This document shows, piece after piece, positions 6,370 to 63,487 of a stretch of DNA of 64,000 nt. How positions within the stretch are numbered: position 1 is the first letter of the stretch; the number at the start of each line of letters is the position of its first letter. This stretch comes from Burkholderia contaminans. Its GTDB lineage: Bacteria > Pseudomonadota > Gammaproteobacteria > Burkholderiales > Burkholderiaceae. The DNA lies in assembly GCF_029633825.1 (NCBI RefSeq), contig NZ_CP090641.1, forward strand, positions 1,984,001 to 2,048,000, in the 5' to 3' direction. The translations under genes were made by a program, and so were the position numbers. The notes under the pieces were generated by a model that saw only the letters and a list, made by a program, of their open reading frames with translations, did no database searches and was not told where the DNA came from.

Positions 6370-6696
6370 ATGGATACCGAGCAACGCTACACCGCCAACG
6401 CGCCGACGCGCGCGGAAGTCGACGCACTGGGCGGCCCGACCGTCATCGAATTCGGCGCGAACTGGTGCGGGATCTGCGCGGGCGCGCAGCCGGCGATCGT
6501 CGCGTCGTTTTCCGCGCATCCCGCCGTGCGGCACCTGAAGATCGAGGATGGCCCGGGCCGCCCGCTCGGCCGCTCGTTCGGCGTGAAGCTGTGGCCCACC
6601 CTGGTGTTCCTGCGCGATGGCGTCGAAGTCGCGCGCGTCGTGCGGCCTGCCGACGCGAAGCAGATCGAAGCCGACGGCTTCGCCGCGCTGGCCTGA
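6370..6696 (+). CDS. Thioredoxin family protein
   Basis: The 108-residue protein has a single thioredoxin domain with the active site WCGIC near residue 35 (FGANWCGICAGAQP) and the cis-proline motif LWPTLVFLRDG near residue 80. The two active-site cysteines are separated by Gly-Ile rather than the Gly-Pro of classical thioredoxin, which suggests an altered redox potential. No signal peptide is present, so it is cytoplasmic. The ATG at 6370 has GAGGG at 6361-6365; TTG at 6367 is the only alternative. It ends only 10 bp before the YjbQ gene, so the two are probably co-transcribed. Confidence 0.85.
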   Translation: MDTEQRYTANAPTRAEVDALGGPTVIEFGANWCGICAGAQPAIVASFSAHPAVRHLKIEDGPGRPLGRSFGVKLWPTLVFLRDGVEVARVVRPADAKQIEADGFAALA

Positions 6697-6706
6697 GGTC
6701 ACGACG

Positions 6707-7126
6707 ATGCAACAGGCGATCACGCATATCGGTATCGACACGCGCGGCAGCGGCCTCGTCGAATTCACGTCGCAGGTGCGCGCGTTCGTCGACCAGCAGG
6801 CCATCAGCACCGGCCTGCTCACCGTGTTCTGTCGCCACACCTCGGCGTCGCTGCTGATCCAGGAGAACGCCGATTCGTCGGTGCAGCGCGACATCGAGCG
6901 CTACTTCGCGACGCTCGCGCCCGAGGACGCCACGCGCTACGAGCACGACACCGAAGGCACCGACGACATGCCGGCACACCTGCGCACGGCGCTCACGCAG
7001 GTGCAATTGTCGATCCCGGTCGAGCAGGGGCGCATGGTGCTCGGCACGTGGCAGGGAATTTATCTGTTCGAGCATCGCCGCGCGGCGCACCGCCGGGATA
7101 TCGTGCTGCACCTGATCGGCGAGTAA
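6707..7126 (+). CDS. YjbQ family (UPF0047) protein
   Basis: The 139-residue product is a typical YjbQ/UPF0047 protein: GLLTVFCRHTSASLLIQENA near residues 35-55 carries the conserved His-Thr-Ser, and the C-terminal half has LSIPVEQGRMVLGTWQGIYL followed by FEHRRAAHRRDI. Members form small trimers with a metal- or phosphate-binding pocket, and some show weak thiamine-phosphate synthase activity; the physiological role is unsettled. The start ATG 6707 follows GAGGTC. The gene sits 10 bp after the thioredoxin-like gene in the same direction, suggesting one transcript. Length and motifs indicate an intact gene. Confidence 0.85.
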   Translation: MQQAITHIGIDTRGSGLVEFTSQVRAFVDQQAISTGLLTVFCRHTSASLLIQENADSSVQRDIERYFATLAPEDATRYEHDTEGTDDMPAHLRTALTQVQLSIPVEQGRMVLGTWQGIYLFEHRRAAHRRDIVLHLIGE

Positions 7127-7170
7127 GCGGCAACAAGCGGCAACACGCCGCGCATTGCCGGCGCACCGGC

Positions 7171-8991
7171 TCAGGCGAACAGCTTCTCGACGAGCGCGCC
7201 GAGTTCGCGCAGGTGGACGGGCTTCGGCAGGAATGCGTCGAACACCTGCTTGTTCTCGCGCAGCGCGGCTGATTCATATGCGCTGACGCCGAGGATCGCG
7301 GGATGCCGGCCGTCGTCGTCGGGTACCGCGACCGCGCGAATGCGCCGCGCGACTTCGAAGCCGCTCAAGTCCGGCAGTTCGAGGTCGATCACGACGATGT
7401 CGTAATGGCTCGTACCGAAGCGCGCGACGCCGTCCTGCCCGGTGCCGCACAGATCGGCTTCGATGCCGAGCGCCGACAGCATCGCGCCGAGCGTTTCGCG
7501 CGCGTTGTCGTCGTCGTCGACCACCAGCGCGCGCCGGTCGCGGTGCGCGGCCGCGTGCGGCAGCGCGAGCGCGTCGCCGGCCGCGTTGCCGGCGGTGTCG
7601 ATGCCGGGCACTTCGGCCGGCAGCGTCACGACGAACTCGCTGCCTTCGCCCACGACGCTGCGCACGTCCACATGCCCGCGCAGCGTCGTCACGATTTCGC
7701 GCACGACCGCGAGCCCCATGCCGATCCCGTCCACGTGCAGCCCGACCGCGTCGTTCGCGCGATAGAACGGCTCGAAGATCTTCGACAGGTGCGGCTTCGC
7801 GATGCCGGCGCCCGTGTCGCGCACCGCGATCTTCAATTGCGGGCCGGCCGGCGCGTCGGCGAGCGTGATCGACACGTCGATCGACCCGCCGAGCGTGTAC
7901 TTGACCGAGTTCTCGATCAGGTTCGACAGCACCTGGCGCAGTAGCTTGCGATCGGAACGGATCGCAAGGTCGTGCGGCTCGACCTGCTGCGAGATCGCGA
8001 TCCGCTTGGCCGCGATCTTCTCGCGCAGCGGGTCGAGCACCTCGGCGAGCAACGAAGCCATGCCGACGGTTTCCCGTTCGGCGAGGCGCTTCGTCGAGCG
8101 CAGCTTGATGTAGTCGGTCAGATCCTTGACGAGCGCCTCGAGCGACAACGCGGAATTCTGCAGCCGCCGGATCGTCTTCAGGTTGGCCTCCGACTGCGGG
8201 CGCGCGAGCAGGATTTCGACCGATCCGCAGATCGCCTGCAGCGGGGTGCGCAACTCGTGGCTGACCATCCCGAGGAACGCATTTTTCGCCTCGATCATTT
8301 CGAACGCGCGGTCGGACGCCTTGCGTTCGGCGTCGAGTGCCGCGTCCTGCCGTTCGAGCAGGTCGTCACGCGTGCGCATCGTATAGAACAGCAGCAGGAA
8401 CAGCGCGCACAGGATCACGCCGAGCACGATGCCGAGGATCAGGATCGCGCGCTGCTTCTCCTTCAGCTGATGGAACGTGAAGTCGCGCTGCGCCATTTCG
8501 ATCGCGCGGAAATAGTTCGCGAGGCCGTTGACCTTCGGCCAGTACGCATTGACCTCGTCGATCACCTGCTGCGCGTTTTTCGGCGAATCGCGCAGCAACG
8601 GTACTTCGCGCTTCAGGCGCGTCATGAAGTCGCCGAGCGCGTCGATCTCGTTGCGCGCGCGCGGGATGCGCAGCCAGTATTCGGACACTTCCGACGGCCG
8701 CTGCAGAAAGCCGAACGACACCGACAGGCTGTCGAGCTGCATCTGCACGTGATTGAAGTCGTCGTCCTGGTGCGTTGCGTAGAGGATCAGCTGCCGGTCG
8801 AACCGCGTATAGACGTTGCGGTATTGCGCGGCGGTCCAGAACACGCCTTCGCGCGGCCCTTCGAGCACGCCTTCGTTGACCGAGGTGGCGAGGAGGTCCC
8901 ACAGCAGGAACGCCCACGCGGCGAACCCCATGATCCACAGCGAGCCGAGGACCAGGATGATTTTTCTATTTTTCCATCGCCGGCGTTTCAT
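7171..8991 (-). CDS. Hybrid sensor histidine kinase with C-terminal receiver
   Basis: From ATG 8991 the product is about 606 residues. A first membrane helix (KIILVLGSLWIMGFAAWAFL, residues about 9-28) and a second (LILGIVLGVILCALFLLLF, about 190-210) enclose an extracytoplasmic sensor region of about 160 residues. The cytoplasmic part has HisKA with the phospho-accepting His near residue 245 (MVSHELRTPLQ), HATPase with NLIENSVKY and the DTGAGI box, and a receiver with acidic pocket VVDDDDN and acceptor Asp near residue 536 (VIDLELPDLSG). The start overlaps the stop of the upstream gene (ATGA at 8988-8991), so the kinase is translationally coupled to the exported oxidoreductase-fold protein. 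Together with the BetR-type protein this forms a three-gene signalling operon. Confidence 0.9.
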   Translation of the reverse strand: MKRRRWKNRKIILVLGSLWIMGFAAWAFLLWDLLATSVNEGVLEGPREGVFWTAAQYRNVYTRFDRQLILYATHQDDDFNHVQMQLDSLSVSFGFLQRPSEVSEYWLRIPRARNEIDALGDFMTRLKREVPLLRDSPKNAQQVIDEVNAYWPKVNGLANYFRAIEMAQRDFTFHQLKEKQRAILILGIVLGVILCALFLLLFYTMRTRDDLLERQDAALDAERKASDRAFEMIEAKNAFLGMVSHELRTPLQAICGSVEILLARPQSEANLKTIRRLQNSALSLEALVKDLTDYIKLRSTKRLAERETVGMASLLAEVLDPLREKIAAKRIAISQQVEPHDLAIRSDRKLLRQVLSNLIENSVKYTLGGSIDVSITLADAPAGPQLKIAVRDTGAGIAKPHLSKIFEPFYRANDAVGLHVDGIGMGLAVVREIVTTLRGHVDVRSVVGEGSEFVVTLPAEVPGIDTAGNAAGDALALPHAAAHRDRRALVVDDDDNARETLGAMLSALGIEADLCGTGQDGVARFGTSHYDIVVIDLELPDLSGFEVARRIRAVAVPDDDGRHPAILGVSAYESAALRENKQVFDAFLPKPVHLRELGALVEKLFA

Positions 8992-57587: not shown

Positions 57588-57631
57588 CGAGGCCGCACGG
57601 GCAGGAAGCCGGGGAGGACGTATGAAGAAAG

Positions 57632-57660
57632 GCACGCCGCGATGGGCGGCGTGCTTTTTT
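57632..57660 (+). terminator. Intrinsic terminator of the choline/betaine transporter operon
   Basis: GCACGCCGC and GCGGCGTGC form a 9-bp perfect stem with a 5-nt loop, followed by six Ts at 57655-57660, 44 bp after the ATPase stop. Confidence 0.85.
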
Positions 57661-57693
57661 CGGCGCGACGGCGATGACACGTGATCGTCCACG

Positions 57694-57731
57694 AAAAAAC
57701 CGCCGCGAGCCTCGCGGACACGCGGCGGTTT
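57694..57731 (-). terminator. Intrinsic terminator of the decayed methyltransferase gene
   Basis: An 11-bp perfect stem (57697-57707 with 57721-57731) is followed on the minus strand by a run of six Ts (57699-57694). It lies 30 bp after the stop of the pseudogene, so it is probably that gene's surviving terminator. Confidence 0.75.
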
Positions 57732-57760
57732 CGTCACACTCATCGAGCGCAGATCCGTAA

Positions 57761-58051
57761 TCAGTAGTCCAACAGAACCGGCACCAACCGGAATTTCGGC
57801 TCCATTGCGGCGGCCGCATGGTCGCGGAATGAGCGACGCCCGCGATGCGGCAGGATGGTGCGGCTTCAGCGGCGAGCCTGATCGCATCGCCGGGGCCGAA
57901 CCCGACTTCGAGCGGCCCGCTTACCTTCGCCGATCGCGAGCAGCGACAGCGTCCACACATTTTCCGCCCGGTTGTAGCGGCGAATGATGCTGCCGAAGAG
58001 CCACCCGGCGAGGCCGCGTGGCAGGCCGGGTTGCCCGAGATGAGCGGTTAT
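57761..58051 (-). pseudogene. Decayed class I SAM-dependent methyltransferase
   Basis: The minus strand encodes recognisable methyltransferase pieces in shifting frames. After a good ribosome binding site (GGAAGGAG) the expected ATG is ATA at 58051, followed by TAHLGQPGLPRGLAGWLFGS and IIRRYNRAENVWTLSLLAIG. A frameshift near 57925 moves to LEVGFGPGDAIRLAAEAAPS and CRIAGVAHSATM, the SAM-binding motif I and strand 2. A large deletion then removes about half the domain, and a third frame gives AMEPKFRLVPVLLDY before TGA at 57761. About 92 codons remain of the roughly 210 expected. A terminator for this strand survives just downstream. A lost start codon, a frameshift and a deletion together argue that the gene is dead. 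Confidence 0.7.
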
Positions 58052-58677
58052 CGCGTTCTCCTTCCGCGATCGGCGGCGACATCCTGTCTCGTCCGGCGGA
58101 CGAGTAGCGAGAAGGTTCTACGTCGCCATTCCATCGCGTCCGCCGGCCGAAATCCTCGTACCTGTCGATCACCCGATCCGCGCGTGCCGGCGCTCGCCGC
58201 GGACGGGCGCCGAAGAAAAAGCGACCTATCACATTCGAAACATTTCCGAATGGCGCTTTATCCGGGTTTTTAACGCCTTGCCGGAACGAATTCGCGCGCG
58301 CCCCTGCCGGTGCGCGGGTTTGCGATCGAGAGCGAATATCCGGCGCGGCAGGCATGCCCGAATCCGCCCCGACGGCAATCTCAAAAATGAAACATGGCGC
58401 ATTTGCTGTGCCCGCGCTGGCCTGATCGGCAAGCCCTTGAATGCAAACGGGAAAGGCCTCTGCGCATCGCCAAGGCCACGGTATCGTGCCGATCGGCACG
58501 TTTCAGCGTTGAAACATGAATCGCGTGCCGGCGTCGCGCGGGGCAGGCCATGTCGCGTGAAAAATCCCACGGTCTCTTTGTATGCGGGCCGCCTGGAGGC
58601 GTGGCATCGCCGATGCGTGTTGTCGTCCGGATTGGCGCGGTCGGCCAAGCCGTTCCTCGTTACTTCAGGAGGATTTC
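58052..58677. other. Non-coding region upstream of the Gly-rich protein gene
   Basis: No gene is apparent in these 626 bp. The sequence GAAACAT occurs three times (58236, 58388 and 58512), each in an AT-richer patch, and CATTCG/CGAATG at 58230-58250 is a short inverted repeat. These could be regulator sites for the Fap-like cluster that begins at 58678. Open frames in this region look like chance readings. Confidence 0.4.
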
Positions 58678-59922
58678 ATGCGTAAGACTTTATTGGCGTC
58701 CGCTGCGCTTCTCGCCCTGGGATGCAGCGGCTACGCGATGGCGAATCCATGCAGCAGCAATGCCAGTTCGACGTGCAGCCAGAAAGCGGATGACGGATCG
58801 AACACGCTCAGCAATTCGGTCAGCTCAAGCCAGACCAGCACCACCGGGTCCAATGCAAATGAAGTCTCGCCTGGCGCGAGCGTCTATCAGGATTCCTACA
58901 ACAGCACCAAGATCGTCGCGATCAGCAAACTCGACGGGTACGTGAGCAATGTCCAGGTCTGGGGCATCGGCAACAACGCGACCAATTCGGGCAGCGCGGC
59001 CGGCGGAAGCGGTGGCAAGGGCGGCAACGGCTACGGCTACGGCGGCGCGGGCGGTAACGGCGGCAGCGGCGGCGCGGGCGGCGGCGGCGGGAAAGGCGGC
59101 AGCGCGCATAACGGCAGCGCCACGGCCGGCAACGCCAGCAACGGCAGCGCGACAGCCGGCACCGGCAACGGCGGTAGCGGCGGAACCGGCGGTTCACCTG
59201 ACGCCAGCGGCGGGGCTGGCGGCAAGGCCACGGCGAGCGGCGGCTATGGCTCCGGCAAGGGCGGCGGCGCCATCGCGGCTTCGGTCGGCGTAGGCGGCTC
59301 CGGCAGCGGCACCGGCACCGGCTGGGGTGGCGGCGGCGGTACGGCCGATGCAGGTTCCGCGTGGGCCAAGAATCATGGCAGCGGAAGCGCGTCGGCATCG
59401 GCCGGCAGCGGTACCGGCACGGGCACGGGCACCGGCAGCGGTTCGGGTAGCGGCACGGGTGGCGCAGGGTCGGCGGGTGCGTCGACGGCTTCGGGCGGAT
59501 CGGGCTCGGGTACCGGCGGCAGCGGTGCGGCCGCGGGCGGCACCGGCGGCGCGGCGACGGCCGCGGCGGGCAACGGCGGAGCCGGCGGCGCGGGCACGGG
59601 CGGCGGCGCGACGAACGGTGGCGCGACGACGACGGCCAGCAACGGCAGCGCTACCGCGGGTAGCGGCGCGGTGGGCGCGATGGGCGGCGCGGGCGGCGCA
59701 GGCGGCACGGGCAACGGCGGCGTCGGTAACGGCGCGGTCGGCGGCGCGGGTGGCGCAGGCGGAGCCAATACGGTCAATGCGGGGACATTCAACATGTCCA
59801 ACGCAATGGCGAGCGTTGGCCAGACCGCGGCGGGCATCATGGTCGCCAACCAGAACAGCGGCATGGCGTCGCTCGTTCAGCAGGCCGTGACCGTGCAGGC
59901 GAACCTGTCGGTAGGACGTTAG
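58678..59922 (+). CDS. Secreted Gly-rich protein, candidate amyloid-like subunit
   Basis: From ATG 58678 (after AGGAGGATTTC) the 414-residue product has a signal peptide (MRKTLLASAALLALGCSGYA, cleavage near AMA). An N-terminal region of about 75 residues rich in Ser, Asn and Thr comes next, then about 260 residues dominated by Gly with Ser, Ala, Thr and Asn in GGxGG and GSGTG patterns. The C-terminal domain of about 50 residues has polar beta-like sequence (NTVNAGTFNMSNAMASVGQT, NQNSGMASLVQQAVTVQANL). The two non-repetitive ends with an Asn/Gln pattern recall amyloid-forming subunits. Its position with a C39 peptidase and a coiled-coil barrel protein suggests it is the exported structural component of a Fap-like system. 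The low-complexity centre could also be a structural or antifreeze-like stalk. Confidence 0.7.
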   Translation: MRKTLLASAALLALGCSGYAMANPCSSNASSTCSQKADDGSNTLSNSVSSSQTSTTGSNANEVSPGASVYQDSYNSTKIVAISKLDGYVSNVQVWGIGNNATNSGSAAGGSGGKGGNGYGYGGAGGNGGSGGAGGGGGKGGSAHNGSATAGNASNGSATAGTGNGGSGGTGGSPDASGGAGGKATASGGYGSGKGGGAIAASVGVGGSGSGTGTGWGGGGGTADAGSAWAKNHGSGSASASAGSGTGTGTGTGSGSGSGTGGAGSAGASTASGGSGSGTGGSGAAAGGTGGAATAAAGNGGAGGAGTGGGATNGGATTTASNGSATAGSGAVGAMGGAGGAGGTGNGGVGNGAVGGAGGAGGANTVNAGTFNMSNAMASVGQTAAGIMVANQNSGMASLVQQAVTVQANLSVGR

Positions 59923-60153
59923 AACGGCCGGTTGGTCCCGGCGAGCCGGATGCGTCGACGCGGGCGCAGGCGAACCCGCGGCTCGCATTCCATCGCCAAG
60001 GGACTGGCGCGCCGGCAAGGGCGGGATGGCCGAATGGCCGTCTCGCTCTCGTCGGCGCAGGCCGGGCCGATTTACGTCGATCGACGATCACGCGGATTCC
60101 GCTCCCCGTGCGGCCGGTTCGTGCCGGCTCGCGCAGGGACCAAGGAGACAGCC

Positions 60154-60594
60154 ATGCGAATCCGAACGGCACTTTCGCAGGTGATATTGCCCGCAGCGCT
60201 GCTGCCGGGCCTGACGGCCCATGCCATGGCTGACGAGGCGCGAACCGTTGCGGTGGAGTCGGCCGCCGGCGTTGCGCCGGGCGCTGCCCCTTCCCCACCC
60301 GCCGCACGTGCGGATCAGGCCGATCCGGCCGCGGCCGCGCAAGCGGCCAGCTTCGGCGTCGCGATGACGCCCGACCAGCTCGACGAGCATCGGGGCGGCG
60401 ACGCGCTGATTGGCCAGAACTATCTGACCGGCACGGTGGCCGACAACGTCGCGAACCGGGTGTCGACCGGCTCGAATTCGATCACCGACGGCTCGTTCGC
60501 CAATGCGAGCGGTCTGCCGACGGTCATCCAGAATACCGGCGCGAACGTGCTGATTCAGAACGCGACGGTGCTCAACGTGCGCTTCGGGAATTGA
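60154..60594 (+). CDS. Exported small protein with double-glycine leader motif (1)
   Basis: From ATG 60154 (after AAGGAGAC) the 146-residue product has a Sec signal peptide (VILPAALLPGLTAHAMA), a low-complexity Ala/Pro segment, and then MTPDQLDEHRGG at residues 71-82. This has the spacing of bacteriocin GG leaders (residues -12, -11, -7 and -4 to the GG). The 64-residue tail is beta-like and Asn/Thr-rich (NYLTGTVADNVANRVSTGSN, LPTVIQNTGANVLIQNATVL). The next gene, 3 bp away, is a C39 peptidase, the family that cuts after such GG sites. The tail may therefore be released in the periplasm. I know of no named family for it. Confidence 0.7.
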   Translation: MRIRTALSQVILPAALLPGLTAHAMADEARTVAVESAAGVAPGAAPSPPAARADQADPAAAAQAASFGVAMTPDQLDEHRGGDALIGQNYLTGTVADNVANRVSTGSNSITDGSFANASGLPTVIQNTGANVLIQNATVLNVRFGN

Positions 60595-60597
60595 GCG

Positions 60598-61290
60598 ATG
60601 AGACAGCTTGCCGCCGCGAGCATCGTGGCGCTCGCGTACGCGCTATCCGGCCCGTCTGCATCGGCGGACGAGATGACGGTCGTCGATCCGGCGGGCGCCG
60701 GTTATGCGATGCACGTCACGAGTCTCAAGGAAGCGCGATTCAAGCGCACCGTCAAGCAGCAGTACGATTTCAGCTGCGGGTCGGCCGCCGTCGCGACGCT
60801 GCTGAATTATCAGTATGACTATCCGATGACCGAGCAGACCGCTTTCGCCCAGATGTGGGAGAACGGCAATCAGGAGAAGATCCGCCAGCAGGGCTTCTCG
60901 CTGCTCGACATCCGGCGTTTTCTCGAAGCGCACGGCTTCGTCGCGGACGGCTTCGAGTTGCCGTTGCAGACGCTTGCCAGGACGCACACGCCGGCGATCG
61001 TGTTGATCACCGAGCACGGCTATCACCATTTCGTGGTCGTGAAGGGGCTGCGTGACGGGCGTGTGCTCGTCGGCGATCCGGCCACCGGCACGCGGCCGAT
61101 GTCGCTGGCGAGTTTCGAGCAGAAGTGGGAAGACCATGTGATTTTCGTGATCCACAACCGGCCCGAGCGGGCGGTGTTCAACGATCCGCGTGACTGGCGC
61201 GTCGCGCCCAGCGCGCCGCTCTACACCGGCATCGCCCGCGACGGCCTGTACAACGTCGTGATGCCGAAGCACGGCCCGAGCGACTATTGA
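60598..61290 (+). CDS. Sec-exported C39 family peptidase (FapD-like)
   Basis: The 230-residue protein has a signal peptide (IVALAYALSGPSASA) and a C39 domain with all catalytic elements: Gln54/Gln55 and Cys60 in QQYDFSCGSAAVATLL, His144 in GYHHFVVVKG, and Asp160 in LVGDPATGTRPM. In most bacteria C39 domains are fused to ABC exporters and cut GG leaders in the cytoplasm; here the domain is alone and exported. FapD of the Pseudomonas functional-amyloid operon has the same design. The flanking genes on both sides encode exported proteins with GG leader motifs, which are the likely substrates. It starts at ATG 60598, 3 bp after the previous stop. Confidence 0.88.
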   Translation: MRQLAAASIVALAYALSGPSASADEMTVVDPAGAGYAMHVTSLKEARFKRTVKQQYDFSCGSAAVATLLNYQYDYPMTEQTAFAQMWENGNQEKIRQQGFSLLDIRRFLEAHGFVADGFELPLQTLARTHTPAIVLITEHGYHHFVVVKGLRDGRVLVGDPATGTRPMSLASFEQKWEDHVIFVIHNRPERAVFNDPRDWRVAPSAPLYTGIARDGLYNVVMPKHGPSDY

Positions 61291-61298
61291 GGATCGTC

Positions 61299-62018
61299 AT
61301 GAGATCCGAGACCAGGAGGATCGCCGGCATCGCCGCGATGGTGTGCGGCGGGGCGACGTCCGTGAGTGCGGCGGCGCTGCAGGACGGCGCGCCGACCGCG
61401 ATTGTCGAGCCTGTCGCGCAGGCGAGCAGCGTCGTGCCGGCTGCCGCCACGAACGCGGGCGTCGATACGGCGCCTGCAGAGTCGGGGGCCGAGGGCACGC
61501 CGATCCTGCGTGCCGGGCCGCTCGCGATGGCGGCGTGCGCGGCCGCCGGGCCGCCGGCCTCCGAGCCGGAGCCGGGCGGCGCGCCACGACGAAACTGGGC
61601 GGCAACCGGCGCGATCGCGCTCAGCGACACGCGCCTCGATGCGATGCGCGGCGGCTTCGACATGCCGAGCGGCCTGAAGATTTCGTTCGGCGTGTCGCGT
61701 GTCGCGTTCGTGGACGGCACGCTGGTCACGACGACCAGCTTCAACATCCCGGATATCAGTCATATCACCGCGCAACAGGCGCAGGCGCTGGCGGCCGCGA
61801 ACGCGGGCGCGTTGATCCAGGTGGGCGCCGGCAACGCCGCCCAGCCCGCCGCGCTGCCGGCGCTGACCGGCGCGGTGATCCAGAACACGTTGAACAACCA
61901 GCAGATCCAGGCGCTGACGACGATCAACACGACCGTCAACACACTGGCGACGTTCAAGAACCTGAACGTGATGTCGACGCTGAACAATGCGCTGCTCGGC
62001 GCGTTGCCGGGACGATGA
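61299..62018 (+). CDS. Exported protein with double-glycine leader motif (2)
   Basis: From ATG 61299 the 239-residue product has a signal-like N-terminus (RRIAGIAAMVCGGATSVSAA) and an Ala/Pro-rich stretch to about residue 100. IALSDTRLDAMRGG then ends at residues 118-119, a close match to the GG-leader consensus LSxxELxxIxGG apart from Arg at -8. The 120-residue tail is hydrophobic/polar beta sequence (FDMPSGLKISFGVSRVAFVD, LTGAVIQNTLNNQQIQALTT) and shares VIQNT with protein 1. It follows the C39 gene by 8 bp. It is probably a second substrate of that peptidase and a component of the fibre or its export apparatus. Confidence 0.7.
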   Translation: MRSETRRIAGIAAMVCGGATSVSAAALQDGAPTAIVEPVAQASSVVPAAATNAGVDTAPAESGAEGTPILRAGPLAMAACAAAGPPASEPEPGGAPRRNWAATGAIALSDTRLDAMRGGFDMPSGLKISFGVSRVAFVDGTLVTTTSFNIPDISHITAQQAQALAAANAGALIQVGAGNAAQPAALPALTGAVIQNTLNNQQIQALTTINTTVNTLATFKNLNVMSTLNNALLGALPGR

Positions 62019-62122
62019 GGATCGTTGAGCGGTCGATGACCGGCGGATGAGCGGGTAATGGCACGCGGGTGCCGGCGTGCGTCGTGCAGCCCGCTGCGGC
62101 GCATGTCGGCGCATGTCGGCGA

Positions 62123-63487
62123 TCAGAATGCAATCGGCACGCGCAGCGTCATGACCACGTCCGGCGTGTCGCGCGTGAGGCCGGCGCCGATCGAAAGATT
62201 CAGCGTGGTCTTCGGCGACAGCCGGTACGAGTAGCCGACGAGCAGTGAACCGAGGATCACGCGTACCGAGCTTGGAATCGTCTGGCCGTTCTGTTTCGTG
62301 GGCAGCACGATGCTTTGGTCGTAGCCGAGGCTCACCGATGCTTTCTCGTTCAGCGCGAGGCCCATGCCGATGTTGAAACCCCAGATGTCGCCGGGCTGCA
62401 ATTTTCCGATGAAATCCTTCTGCCCGTCGCGAATCGTGAGGCTGAGATTGTCGCGGCTGAAGCTGTGCAGATAGCTCAAGTTGCCGAAGAACACCACCGG
62501 GTCGGACGGAAAGAGCCAGGTGAGGCCCGGCTGGATCGCGTAGAAGCCCGAGCCCGTCGGCTGCTCGAGCGGCAGGCCGGTGCCGGTGGCATTGCCGACG
62601 CAGCGCGTGACGCAGTCGGTGACGACGTCGAACGGGCTCTTGCCGGTGGCGGTCTTGAAGCGCAGCCAGCCGATGTAATAGAACTTGTCGGGGCCGCCGG
62701 TATTGAACTGGTAGCGCAGCGTCATTTCGACGTCGCCGAGGCCTTTGCCGTGGCTGTTGAACGCGTTGTCCTGGGCGGAACCGGTGAAGATCTCGCGGCT
62801 GATCGTGTCGTTCGTCGAGTACACGTAGGGGACGCGGACTTCGACTTCCATCCGGTTGGTGATCCCGTAGCGCACCGCGACCGCGCCGGTCAGCGTGGTT
62901 GTCTTGACTTCCCGCACGTCGACCAGGCCGATCAGCAGCGCGGGGATGATCGTGTAGCCGACGAGTGCGACGCGGTTCGACGACGAATAGTTGAACTGGA
63001 ACGACGGCTCGACGACGAACTTGTGCTTCGGTGTCAGCACGCCGGGCTGATCGAAGATCGGCGCGACGGGCGGCGGGGCGGTTTCCGCCACCGGCGCCTG
63101 GCCGATCGGCTGGCTCGGCGGCGCGGCGGGCCCGGCCGCCGATTGCACGTTGCCGGCCGTGCCGGGTGCGCCGCCCGGGGCGCCGGTATCGGCCGGCGGC
63201 GCCGCGTCGCCGGAGCCGCCGGCATCGCCGGGGCCCGCGCCGCGCCGGGACGCGAGTTCGCGGTCGTCCAGCGCCCGGCTCAGGCGCGAAAGATGGGCTT
63301 CTTCATCGGCCAGTTTGCGCTTGAGCGCGCTCAGTTCCTGCAGATGACGATCGACTTCGTGACGCAGCGCGGAAATGTTCTCCTGGGTCGACTGGGCGTC
63401 CAGCGACTGCGCCTGCGCCTGGGCCTGAAAGAGCAGCACGCTTGCATACGTGATGGCACGGATGCAGCGAAATGGCATGCGTTTCAC
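62123..63487 (-). CDS. Coiled-coil plus beta-barrel outer-membrane protein (FapF-like)
   Basis: GTG 63487 after GGGGGAGA gives 454 residues (ATG 63478 is an alternative; the frame is open to 63610). A signal peptide (ITYASVLLFQAQAQAQS) is followed by a heptad-rich helix (TQENISALRHEVDRHLQELS, ALKRKLADEEAHLSRLSRAL), then a Gly/Pro/Ala linker of about 60 residues. A beta-barrel region (KFVVEPSFQFNYSSSNRVAL ... VVMTLRVPIAF) ends in Phe. This order (coiled coil, linker, barrel) is that of FapF, the trimeric pore that exports functional amyloid in Pseudomonas. It is convergent with the Gly-rich/C39 cluster rather than in its operon. A general phenol-degradation-type OM barrel is the other possibility. 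Confidence 0.72.
   Translation of the reverse strand: MKRMPFRCIRAITYASVLLFQAQAQAQSLDAQSTQENISALRHEVDRHLQELSALKRKLADEEAHLSRLSRALDDRELASRRGAGPGDAGGSGDAAPPADTGAPGGAPGTAGNVQSAAGPAAPPSQPIGQAPVAETAPPPVAPIFDQPGVLTPKHKFVVEPSFQFNYSSSNRVALVGYTIIPALLIGLVDVREVKTTTLTGAVAVRYGITNRMEVEVRVPYVYSTNDTISREIFTGSAQDNAFNSHGKGLGDVEMTLRYQFNTGGPDKFYYIGWLRFKTATGKSPFDVVTDCVTRCVGNATGTGLPLEQPTGSGFYAIQPGLTWLFPSDPVVFFGNLSYLHSFSRDNLSLTIRDGQKDFIGKLQPGDIWGFNIGMGLALNEKASVSLGYDQSIVLPTKQNGQTIPSSVRVILGSLLVGYSYRLSPKTTLNLSIGAGLTRDTPDVVMTLRVPIAF

Follow-up and report, generated by a model that had tools for sequence, protein, structure and literature searches.

A divergent Fap-type export locus in Burkholderia contaminans and a candidate double-glycine leader motif in the predicted substrates of its C39 peptidase

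The five genes and where they occur

The window analysed here is a 64,000-nucleotide stretch of a Burkholderia contaminans genome, and the subject of this report is a group of five genes at 58678-63487 that a first-pass annotation had proposed as a candidate functional-amyloid (Fap-like) export locus. All five open reading frames (ORFs) are present there, and we refer to their products as A, B, C39, D and F. The N terminus of each reads as a basic and then hydrophobic, signal-like segment. A joins this start to a variable Gly-rich middle and a conserved C-terminal module, and F has an in-frame ATG at 63478 as an alternative to its GTG start. The features are as follows, each with its evidence in brackets; L159 is a related locus described below.

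58678-59922, + strand: A, predicted secreted Gly-rich protein, 414 residues, likely the main fibre subunit (ORF, signal-like N terminus)
58987-59766, + strand: Gly-rich middle of A, residues 104-363, 45% Gly (composition)
59827-59907, + strand: C-terminal Asn/Gln repeat-like module of A (profile match to L159 repeats, E 3.3e-5)
60154-60594, + strand: B, small predicted-exported protein, 146 residues, predicted C39 substrate (ORF, leader motif)
60364-60399, + strand: double-glycine leader motif of B, residues 71-82 (motif conservation)
60505-60585, + strand: C-terminal repeat-like module of B (profile match to L159 repeats, E 3.6e-6)
60598-61290, + strand: C39 peptidase, FapD-like, predicted periplasmic, 230 residues (Pfam, NCBIfam, structure model)
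60766-60780, + strand: DFSCG motif with the likely catalytic Cys60 (invariant column; role as in the C39 family)
61018-61038, + strand: GYHHFVV motif, likely catalytic histidine (conserved columns; role as in the C39 family)
61072-61089, + strand: GDPATG motif, likely third catalytic residue Asp160 (conserved columns; role as in the C39 family)
61299-62018, + strand: D, FapE-like protein, 239 residues, predicted C39 substrate (profile match, gene place)
61620-61655, + strand: double-glycine leader motif of D, residues 108-119 (motif conservation)
61872-61940, + strand: C-terminal Asn/Gln module of D (match to B module, E 2.1e-5)
62123-63487, - strand: F, FapF-like predicted outer-membrane pore with coiled coil and linker, 454 residues from GTG (profiles, fold)
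63275-63406, - strand: coiled-coil region of F, residues 28-71 (sequence and model)
63236-63271, - strand: leader-like motif at the coil-linker junction of F, residues 73-84 (motif reading, alignment)

The source genome (9.4 Mb, 7 contigs) holds a single match to the window peptidase at E ≤ 0.001, and the closest relatives among the matches listed are 96% identical and from Burkholderia, one of them B. contaminans. Scanning one genome per species gave at least 564 stretches encoding a relative of the peptidase, of which the best 80 were kept. All five genes lie in one locus in 76 of these 80 (BLAST), with A at most 3.5 kb from B. A was not found in L006, at a contig edge; F of L080 is only a fragment, cut by the contig start (tblastn); L028 has an upstream A-like ORF without a BLAST match to A; and in L064 a single ORF (6397-7941) starts like A and finishes with the end of B, which may be a natural fusion. 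A genus search covered 65 Burkholderia genomes, among which 11 encode a peptidase of the window type (83-100% identity), 10 a classical FapD-like peptidase (34-39% identity) and four both kinds together. Ten non-window loci of each kind were fetched. Those of the window type all carry the five genes, with F opposite to the rest; L179, L181 and L184 duplicate L003, L004 and L002, respectively, so that seven of the ten are new. Those with a classical peptidase all contain relatives of FapD, FapE and FapF. The five genes are real and conserved together, and the co-occurrence survey that the first-pass annotation had called for finds them travelling as a set.

Among the 80 loci F runs in the direction of the other genes in 58, runs opposite in 21 (in one of these, L047, it lies upstream of A) and was not detected by ORF BLAST in one. 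The convergent barrel gene described earlier is thus a feature of the window and of Burkholderia, but not of these loci in general. Nor is the branch limited to Burkholderia, as had been suggested: the best 80 loci come from Burkholderiaceae, Comamonadaceae, Oxalobacteraceae and the Lysobacter-Dyella-Luteibacter group, and genera with the branch include Paraburkholderia, Ralstonia, Cupriavidus, Pandoraea, Dyella, Luteibacter, Lysobacter, Pseudoxanthomonas and others. Loci L030 and L072 are those of Cupriavidus necator. A promoter scan around the locus found none, and terminator-like sites occur near chance level; the roughly 1 kb upstream of A (57600-58677) was assigned no gene, though mechanical ORFs are listed there, and the promoter scan found nothing in it.

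Relationship to Fap proteins

The 230-residue peptidase passes the Pfam C39 model (PF03412, 75.3 bits, cut-off 22), which finds a C39 domain without an ATP-binding cassette (ABC) part. It scores 134.2 bits with the NCBIfam FapD model NF058616, below the cut-off of 330, and 125.7 bits with FilB, below 475. Its profile also matches double-glycine peptidases, and the best Protein Data Bank matches of its structure model are the double-glycine peptidases PCAT1, ComA and 6mpz. The C39 domain and the conserved Cys, His and Asp of such enzymes are all present; Cys60 of DFSCG is invariant in 21 of 21 chosen alignment rows, and we take Cys60, the GYHHFVV histidine and Asp160 to be the likely catalytic residues, in line with their roles in the C39 family. 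The AlphaFold models of C39 and F have middling confidence (mean predicted local distance difference test 70.5 and 67.2), perhaps owing to small alignments. By sequence the peptidase is related to FapD, far below the curated cut-off, which agrees with the FapD-like label first given to it.

The low scores could mean that this is simply a classical Fap system whose members the curated models underrate. Relatives of FapD, FapE and FapF do stand here in the same setting, and Fap proteins differ much among taxa (PMC3792158; papers are cited by PubMed Central number). Moreover, the FapD cut-off appears narrow, since 0 of 200 and 0 of 274 genomes passed it in two scans; even the loci that we call classical, by peptidase scores of 197-286 bits with the FapD profile, fail it. 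Against this, the window peptidase scores below that classical range, four Burkholderia genomes hold both kinds side by side, and no multi-repeat FapC was seen. Furthermore, in a peptidase tree of 70 rows the kind whose partner motif (see below) has Gly at −1 and the kind whose partner has Lys or Arg separate at 100/100, and the window's group of 22 rows forms one side of a branch at 99/85; these bootstrap values are rough according to the program, and one row, L089m, sits on a stray long branch and was not used. We give a misjudged classical system hardly any credence, and the deep split favours the separate branch of Fap-like export machinery that had been suggested. Residue 117 is possibly a specificity residue: Asp117 (60946-60948) occurs in 81 of 81 peptidases of the branch, and Arg in 22 of 27 classical ones. 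A search of the peptidases for residues explaining Gly versus Lys/Arg at −1 gave group-specific positions, residue 117 among them, but no convincing pocket.

F scores 140.1 bits with the NCBIfam FapF model NF058560 (profile positions 18-420 of 420; cut-off 700) and 59.7 bits with FilC (cut-off 630). It matches FapF structures by sequence at E 6.7e-28, and the first 18 fold matches of its model are FapF chains (top template modelling score 0.82 of target). The model contains a helix at 34-72, a second helix at 76-82, a low-confidence linker and strands at 157-449. F is therefore related to FapF by sequence and by modelled fold, far below the curated cut-off. The first-pass annotation would have been undone by an unrelated solvent-type porin lacking a coiled coil; instead, the COG4313 channel (4rl8) ranks below the FapF chains and the coiled coil is present in the model. 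At two intermediate loci, L159 and L160, the barrel protein found has neither coiled coil nor motif.

D occupies the gene place of FapE, directly after the peptidase, and matches the FapE family at the motif described below with E 1.1e-4 (probability 57). By sequence and position it is a FapE relative, which corrects the first-pass annotation. Searches of A, B and D in Pfam and NCBIfam returned no family, and weak family matches of B (E 0.11) and D (E 0.018) were taken as chance.

The C-terminal modules of these proteins were compared by profile, with E-values for single comparisons. B matches A at 6e-7 and D at 2.1e-5, and A against D gives 0.55; D carries a module related to that of B. The modules of B and A match the nine repeats of two FapC-like proteins from the intermediate locus L159 (E-values in the feature list), which have four or more repeats each; the B profile matches each of them four times, and the L159 repeats match classical FapC repeats at 6e-4. 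A larger intermediate set gave 1.9e-17 for B and 2.3e-10 for A, values inflated because it contained B-like and A-like proteins, and not relied on. These comparisons connect the A and B modules to FapC-type repeats, indirectly, through L159. The earlier statement that no subunit looks like FapB or FapC therefore stands for single-sequence searches and fails in part for profiles. FapB and FapC have about three Fap repeats, and A and B one module each. Eight Paraburkholderia loci (L009-L016) have two tandem ORFs with an A-type C terminus, reminiscent of a FapB/FapC pair; the pattern behind this observation misses A in 16 loci.

A shared leader motif and its likely use

Upstream of the modules, B and D share a motif that the first-pass annotation lacked. 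Counting back from the second glycine as −1, B shows Gly-Gly and a Leu at −7 in all 80 loci, and D keeps [Gly/Ala]-Gly in 80 of 80; the glycines are fixed, and the part that precedes them changes in length and content. Sites were chosen in B by a Gly-Gly that follows R, S or C (78 of 80 loci; the remaining two, L036 and L045, read Thr-Gly-Gly), in D by Arg-[Gly/Ala]-Gly followed by F, M, Y or L (80 of 80; L040 has Ala-Gly), and in classical FapE, for which we took the gene that follows the peptidase at 17 classical loci, by Arg-Gly-[Lys/Arg]-[Phe/Tyr]. The fraction of hydrophobic residues (VILMFWY) at −12, −7 and −4 is 0.97, 1.00 and 0.78 in B (78 loci), 0.99, 1.00 and 0.82 in D (80 loci) and 1.00, 1.00 and 0.88 in the 17 classical FapE proteins. 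It is at most 0.14 at −11 to −8, −6 and −5 in B and D, and lies between 0 and 0.35 over the in-between positions of B, D and FapE together; a further hydrophobic position occurs at −16 in B (0.86) and at −15 in D (0.80). This register matches the one read by a known C39 peptidase, as the LahT C39 domain reads hydrophobic residues at −4, −7 and −12 on a leader helix (PMC10885120). The D proteins of L060 and L077 have two and three Arg-Gly-Gly leader motifs, respectively, as if cut repeatedly.

A relaxed form of the motif occurs in 75 of 80 B, 79 of 80 D and 73 of 79 F proteins, compared with 3/77 for A, 1/80 for C39, 31/579 for other ORFs of at least 150 residues in the same loci and 3-8% for shuffled sequences. 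The strict form is found in 71/80 B and 70/80 D, and in 0/77 A, 0/80 C39 and 1/579 other ORFs; A and the peptidase thus do not rise above background. We also took 58 FapD-like loci of a few kb each from two scans, leaving out the window's own locus and unlisted matches. Grouped by FapD-profile score, the loci with the motif behind the peptidase number 14 of 15 above 225 bits, 7 of 7 between 150 and 225, 17 of 29 between 100 and 150 and none of 7 under 100, four peptidases that were not located being counted as misses (three of them among the 19 motif-less loci below 150 bits). The −1 residue of this motif is Lys or Arg at 197 bits and above and Gly below. In 15 of 58 loci a motif with Gly-Gly or Gly-Arg is present in the gene that precedes the peptidase. 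FapD-like peptidases whose adjoining stretches have no leader motif (L093, L101, L102, L104, L106-L110, L133-L139) are perhaps a subtype with other partners.

The FapE family was surveyed with 140 proteins, 20 from one search and 120 listed of 297 from another, using V/L/I/M/A at −12, Leu or Met at −7, Gly at −2 and an aromatic residue or Met at +1. This pattern fits 132, all with Lys (106) or Arg (26) at −1 and 101 with Thr at −3. Of the eight misses, P0121 is cut N-terminally and seven have Gly-Lys without the following aromatic residue. Several family members (P0142, P0143, P0146-P0148, P0153-P0155 and others) are named 'peptidase C39' with no Pfam domain listed, probably because the name was taken from the neighbouring gene. 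P0150 is named Burkholderia multivorans, a member of the B. cepacia complex. That complex was said in 2013 to have no fap genes (PMC3792158).

F resembles the leader-bearing proteins only in part. An Arg-[Gly/Ala]-x site lies in the linker region in 77 of 79 loci, the Arg at −3 having belonged to the criterion by which sites were chosen; −7 is Leu in 71 of 77, and the hydrophobic fraction at −12 is 0.90. In the model, helix 76-82 ends at this site, ahead of the low-confidence linker. Classical FapF proteins, those of ten Burkholderia loci among them, were inspected by eye: in L146 the motif is in register, in the Burkholderia ones shown it is off by one, and in the remaining sequences displayed none was found.

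Together, these observations make it likely that the window contains a divergent Fap-type export locus whose predicted periplasmic C39 peptidase recognises a shared double-glycine leader motif and cuts behind it in B and D and perhaps also in F. A cut in F is plausible, and we are less sure of it than of those in B and D. Several results weigh against this view. The F site is hydrophobic at −4 in a fraction of only 0.12, varies at −1 (G, A, T, R, M), is missing from 2 of 79 loci and takes the strict form in only 6 of 79, and F of L057 shows no motif. The gene after the peptidase has no motif in 12 of 29 loci at 100-150 bits and in all seven below 100. The match of D to FapE spans only 36 columns, −4 is hydrophobic in only 26 of the 132 fitting FapE-family proteins, and classical FapE carries Lys or Arg at −1, which is unusual among known C39 substrates. 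When compared directly with classical FapB/FapC repeats, the B module matches weakly (0.0089) and the modules of A (0.049) and D (0.22) do not match; nor is the D module significant against the L159 repeats (0.31).

The weakness of the F site suggests that it may be a mere end of the coiled-coil helix, with B and D the true substrates. The unfavourable −4 and −1 positions fit this, as do the leucine-rich heptads that stand before the site. Leu at −7 in most F sites, as in B and D, speaks for a leader instead, as does Arg82 of the site, the sole invariant column before 129 in a 20-sequence alignment (one of the rows is L057, whose aligned Arg may be forced). A helix end is possible, if somewhat doubtful; it is compatible with cutting of B and D, and the two views do not exclude each other.

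The motif might also be a docking site, where C39, acting as a chaperone or gate, would bind all three proteins (B, D and F) without cutting them. Some C39-like domains bind only (PMC5135000), classical FapE keeps the register despite Lys or Arg at −1, and F varies at that position. The invariance of the likely catalytic cysteine and the constancy of Gly-Gly in B and of [Gly/Ala]-Gly in D argue for a protease instead; indeed, a FapD cysteine mutant abolished FapC secretion in an Escherichia coli assay of the Pseudomonas operon (PMC5557850). We regard docking alone as unlikely.

Double-glycine leaders together with C39 domains are typical of peptidase-containing ABC transporters (PCATs; PMC10885120), and B cut after Gly-Gly would leave 64 residues (146 − 82), so B and D could be bacteriocin- or signal-type peptides, matured by C39 and released by F, rather than fibre parts. 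Their signal-like N termini, the absence of an ABC part from the peptidase, the kinship of D to FapE and of F to FapF, and the match of the B profile to the FapC-like proteins of L159 make such peptide export very improbable.

Proposed pathway and known systems

On the preferred reading, in which C39 cuts its partners, the Sec system would export all five proteins, and in the periplasm C39 would cut B and D behind the Gly-Gly, stripping off their N-terminal parts and freeing the module-bearing parts for passage through F. A and the trimmed proteins would leave by this pore; A would build the main fibre, and B and D would start or anchor it, with D perhaps in the role of FapE and B joining as a further minor subunit. 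If F is cut too, its coiled coil would come apart from the linker, the plug and the barrel. By analogy this might turn the pore from open to closed, or reset it, because Pseudomonas FapF is open at full length, whereas its barrel is closed when the coiled coil is missing (PMC5557850). A bolder proposal is that one periplasmic C39 peptidase does both jobs, stripping two amyloid-type subunits of their leaders and severing the coiled coil of the pore, thereby licensing cargo and closing the gate, with the Lys/Arg site of classical FapE as the FapD target. We put this forward tentatively and lean slightly against it, as the repeat link is weaker with the L159 repeats alone and the F site is weak.

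FapD activity is needed for amyloid export, and the 2017 study that reported this found Fap proteins to lack a canonical C39 site and described the FapD target as unclear (PMC5557850). According to the same study, no FapE peptides came from the first ~70 residues, with GG and GA motifs pointed to near the end of that stretch, and FapF linker peptides were missing in mass spectrometry. The missing FapE peptides fit a cut at the FapE motif described here; GG/GA motifs further inside FapE were considered and set aside in favour of the upstream register. A 2025 review presents the N terminus of FapE and the periplasmic portion of FapF as presumed targets of FapD processing (PMC12822426). Pairing of fapD and fapF beyond the known Fap range is already in print, since side-by-side homologues were reported in 2018 from five more phyla (PMC6173800). 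For the leader motif or the five-gene locus we found no description in the open literature (titles, abstract starts and passages; most subscription journals lie outside this search). If the motif marks the cut site, the long-open question of the target of FapD-type peptidases becomes directly testable; because this branch keeps the FapD-type site in plain Gly-Gly form, it identifies the residues to test, both here and in classical FapE. The branch would also represent a broad range of Fap-like exporters among bacteria associated with soil and plants, undescribed in the literature searched.

Among other known systems, the putative Fil pilus system (FilB, FilC; NCBIfam) is similar by scores alone, both below cut-off, and a literature search on the Acinetobacter Fil genes found no paper matching all terms. 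The COG4313 channel has a related barrel fold, but ranks below FapF structures; according to PMC6173800, no C39 peptidase had been reported with COG4313-type channels. With PCAT1, ComA and LahT the locus shares the C39 fold and the −12/−7/−4 register with a double Gly, whereas here the peptidase stands alone and is predicted to be periplasmic, the substrates start with Sec-like signals, and the exit would be a FapF-type pore.

The closest system is Fap (FapABCDEF). As there, a C39 peptidase with its own signal-like N terminus is followed directly by a FapE-like gene, and a pore with coiled coil, linker and barrel accompanies Asn/Gln-patterned subunits. Unlike in Fap, peptidase and pore here fall short of the curated cut-offs, a single C-terminal module and a Gly-rich middle take the place of three repeats in A, and B is an extra leader-bearing small protein. 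The pore gene is convergent in Burkholderia, so that the five genes do not form one operon in the window, although known Fap loci too can have fapF detached (PMC3792158). Finally, the FapE-like protein carries Gly-Gly here, and the FapE of Fap carries Gly-Lys/Arg.

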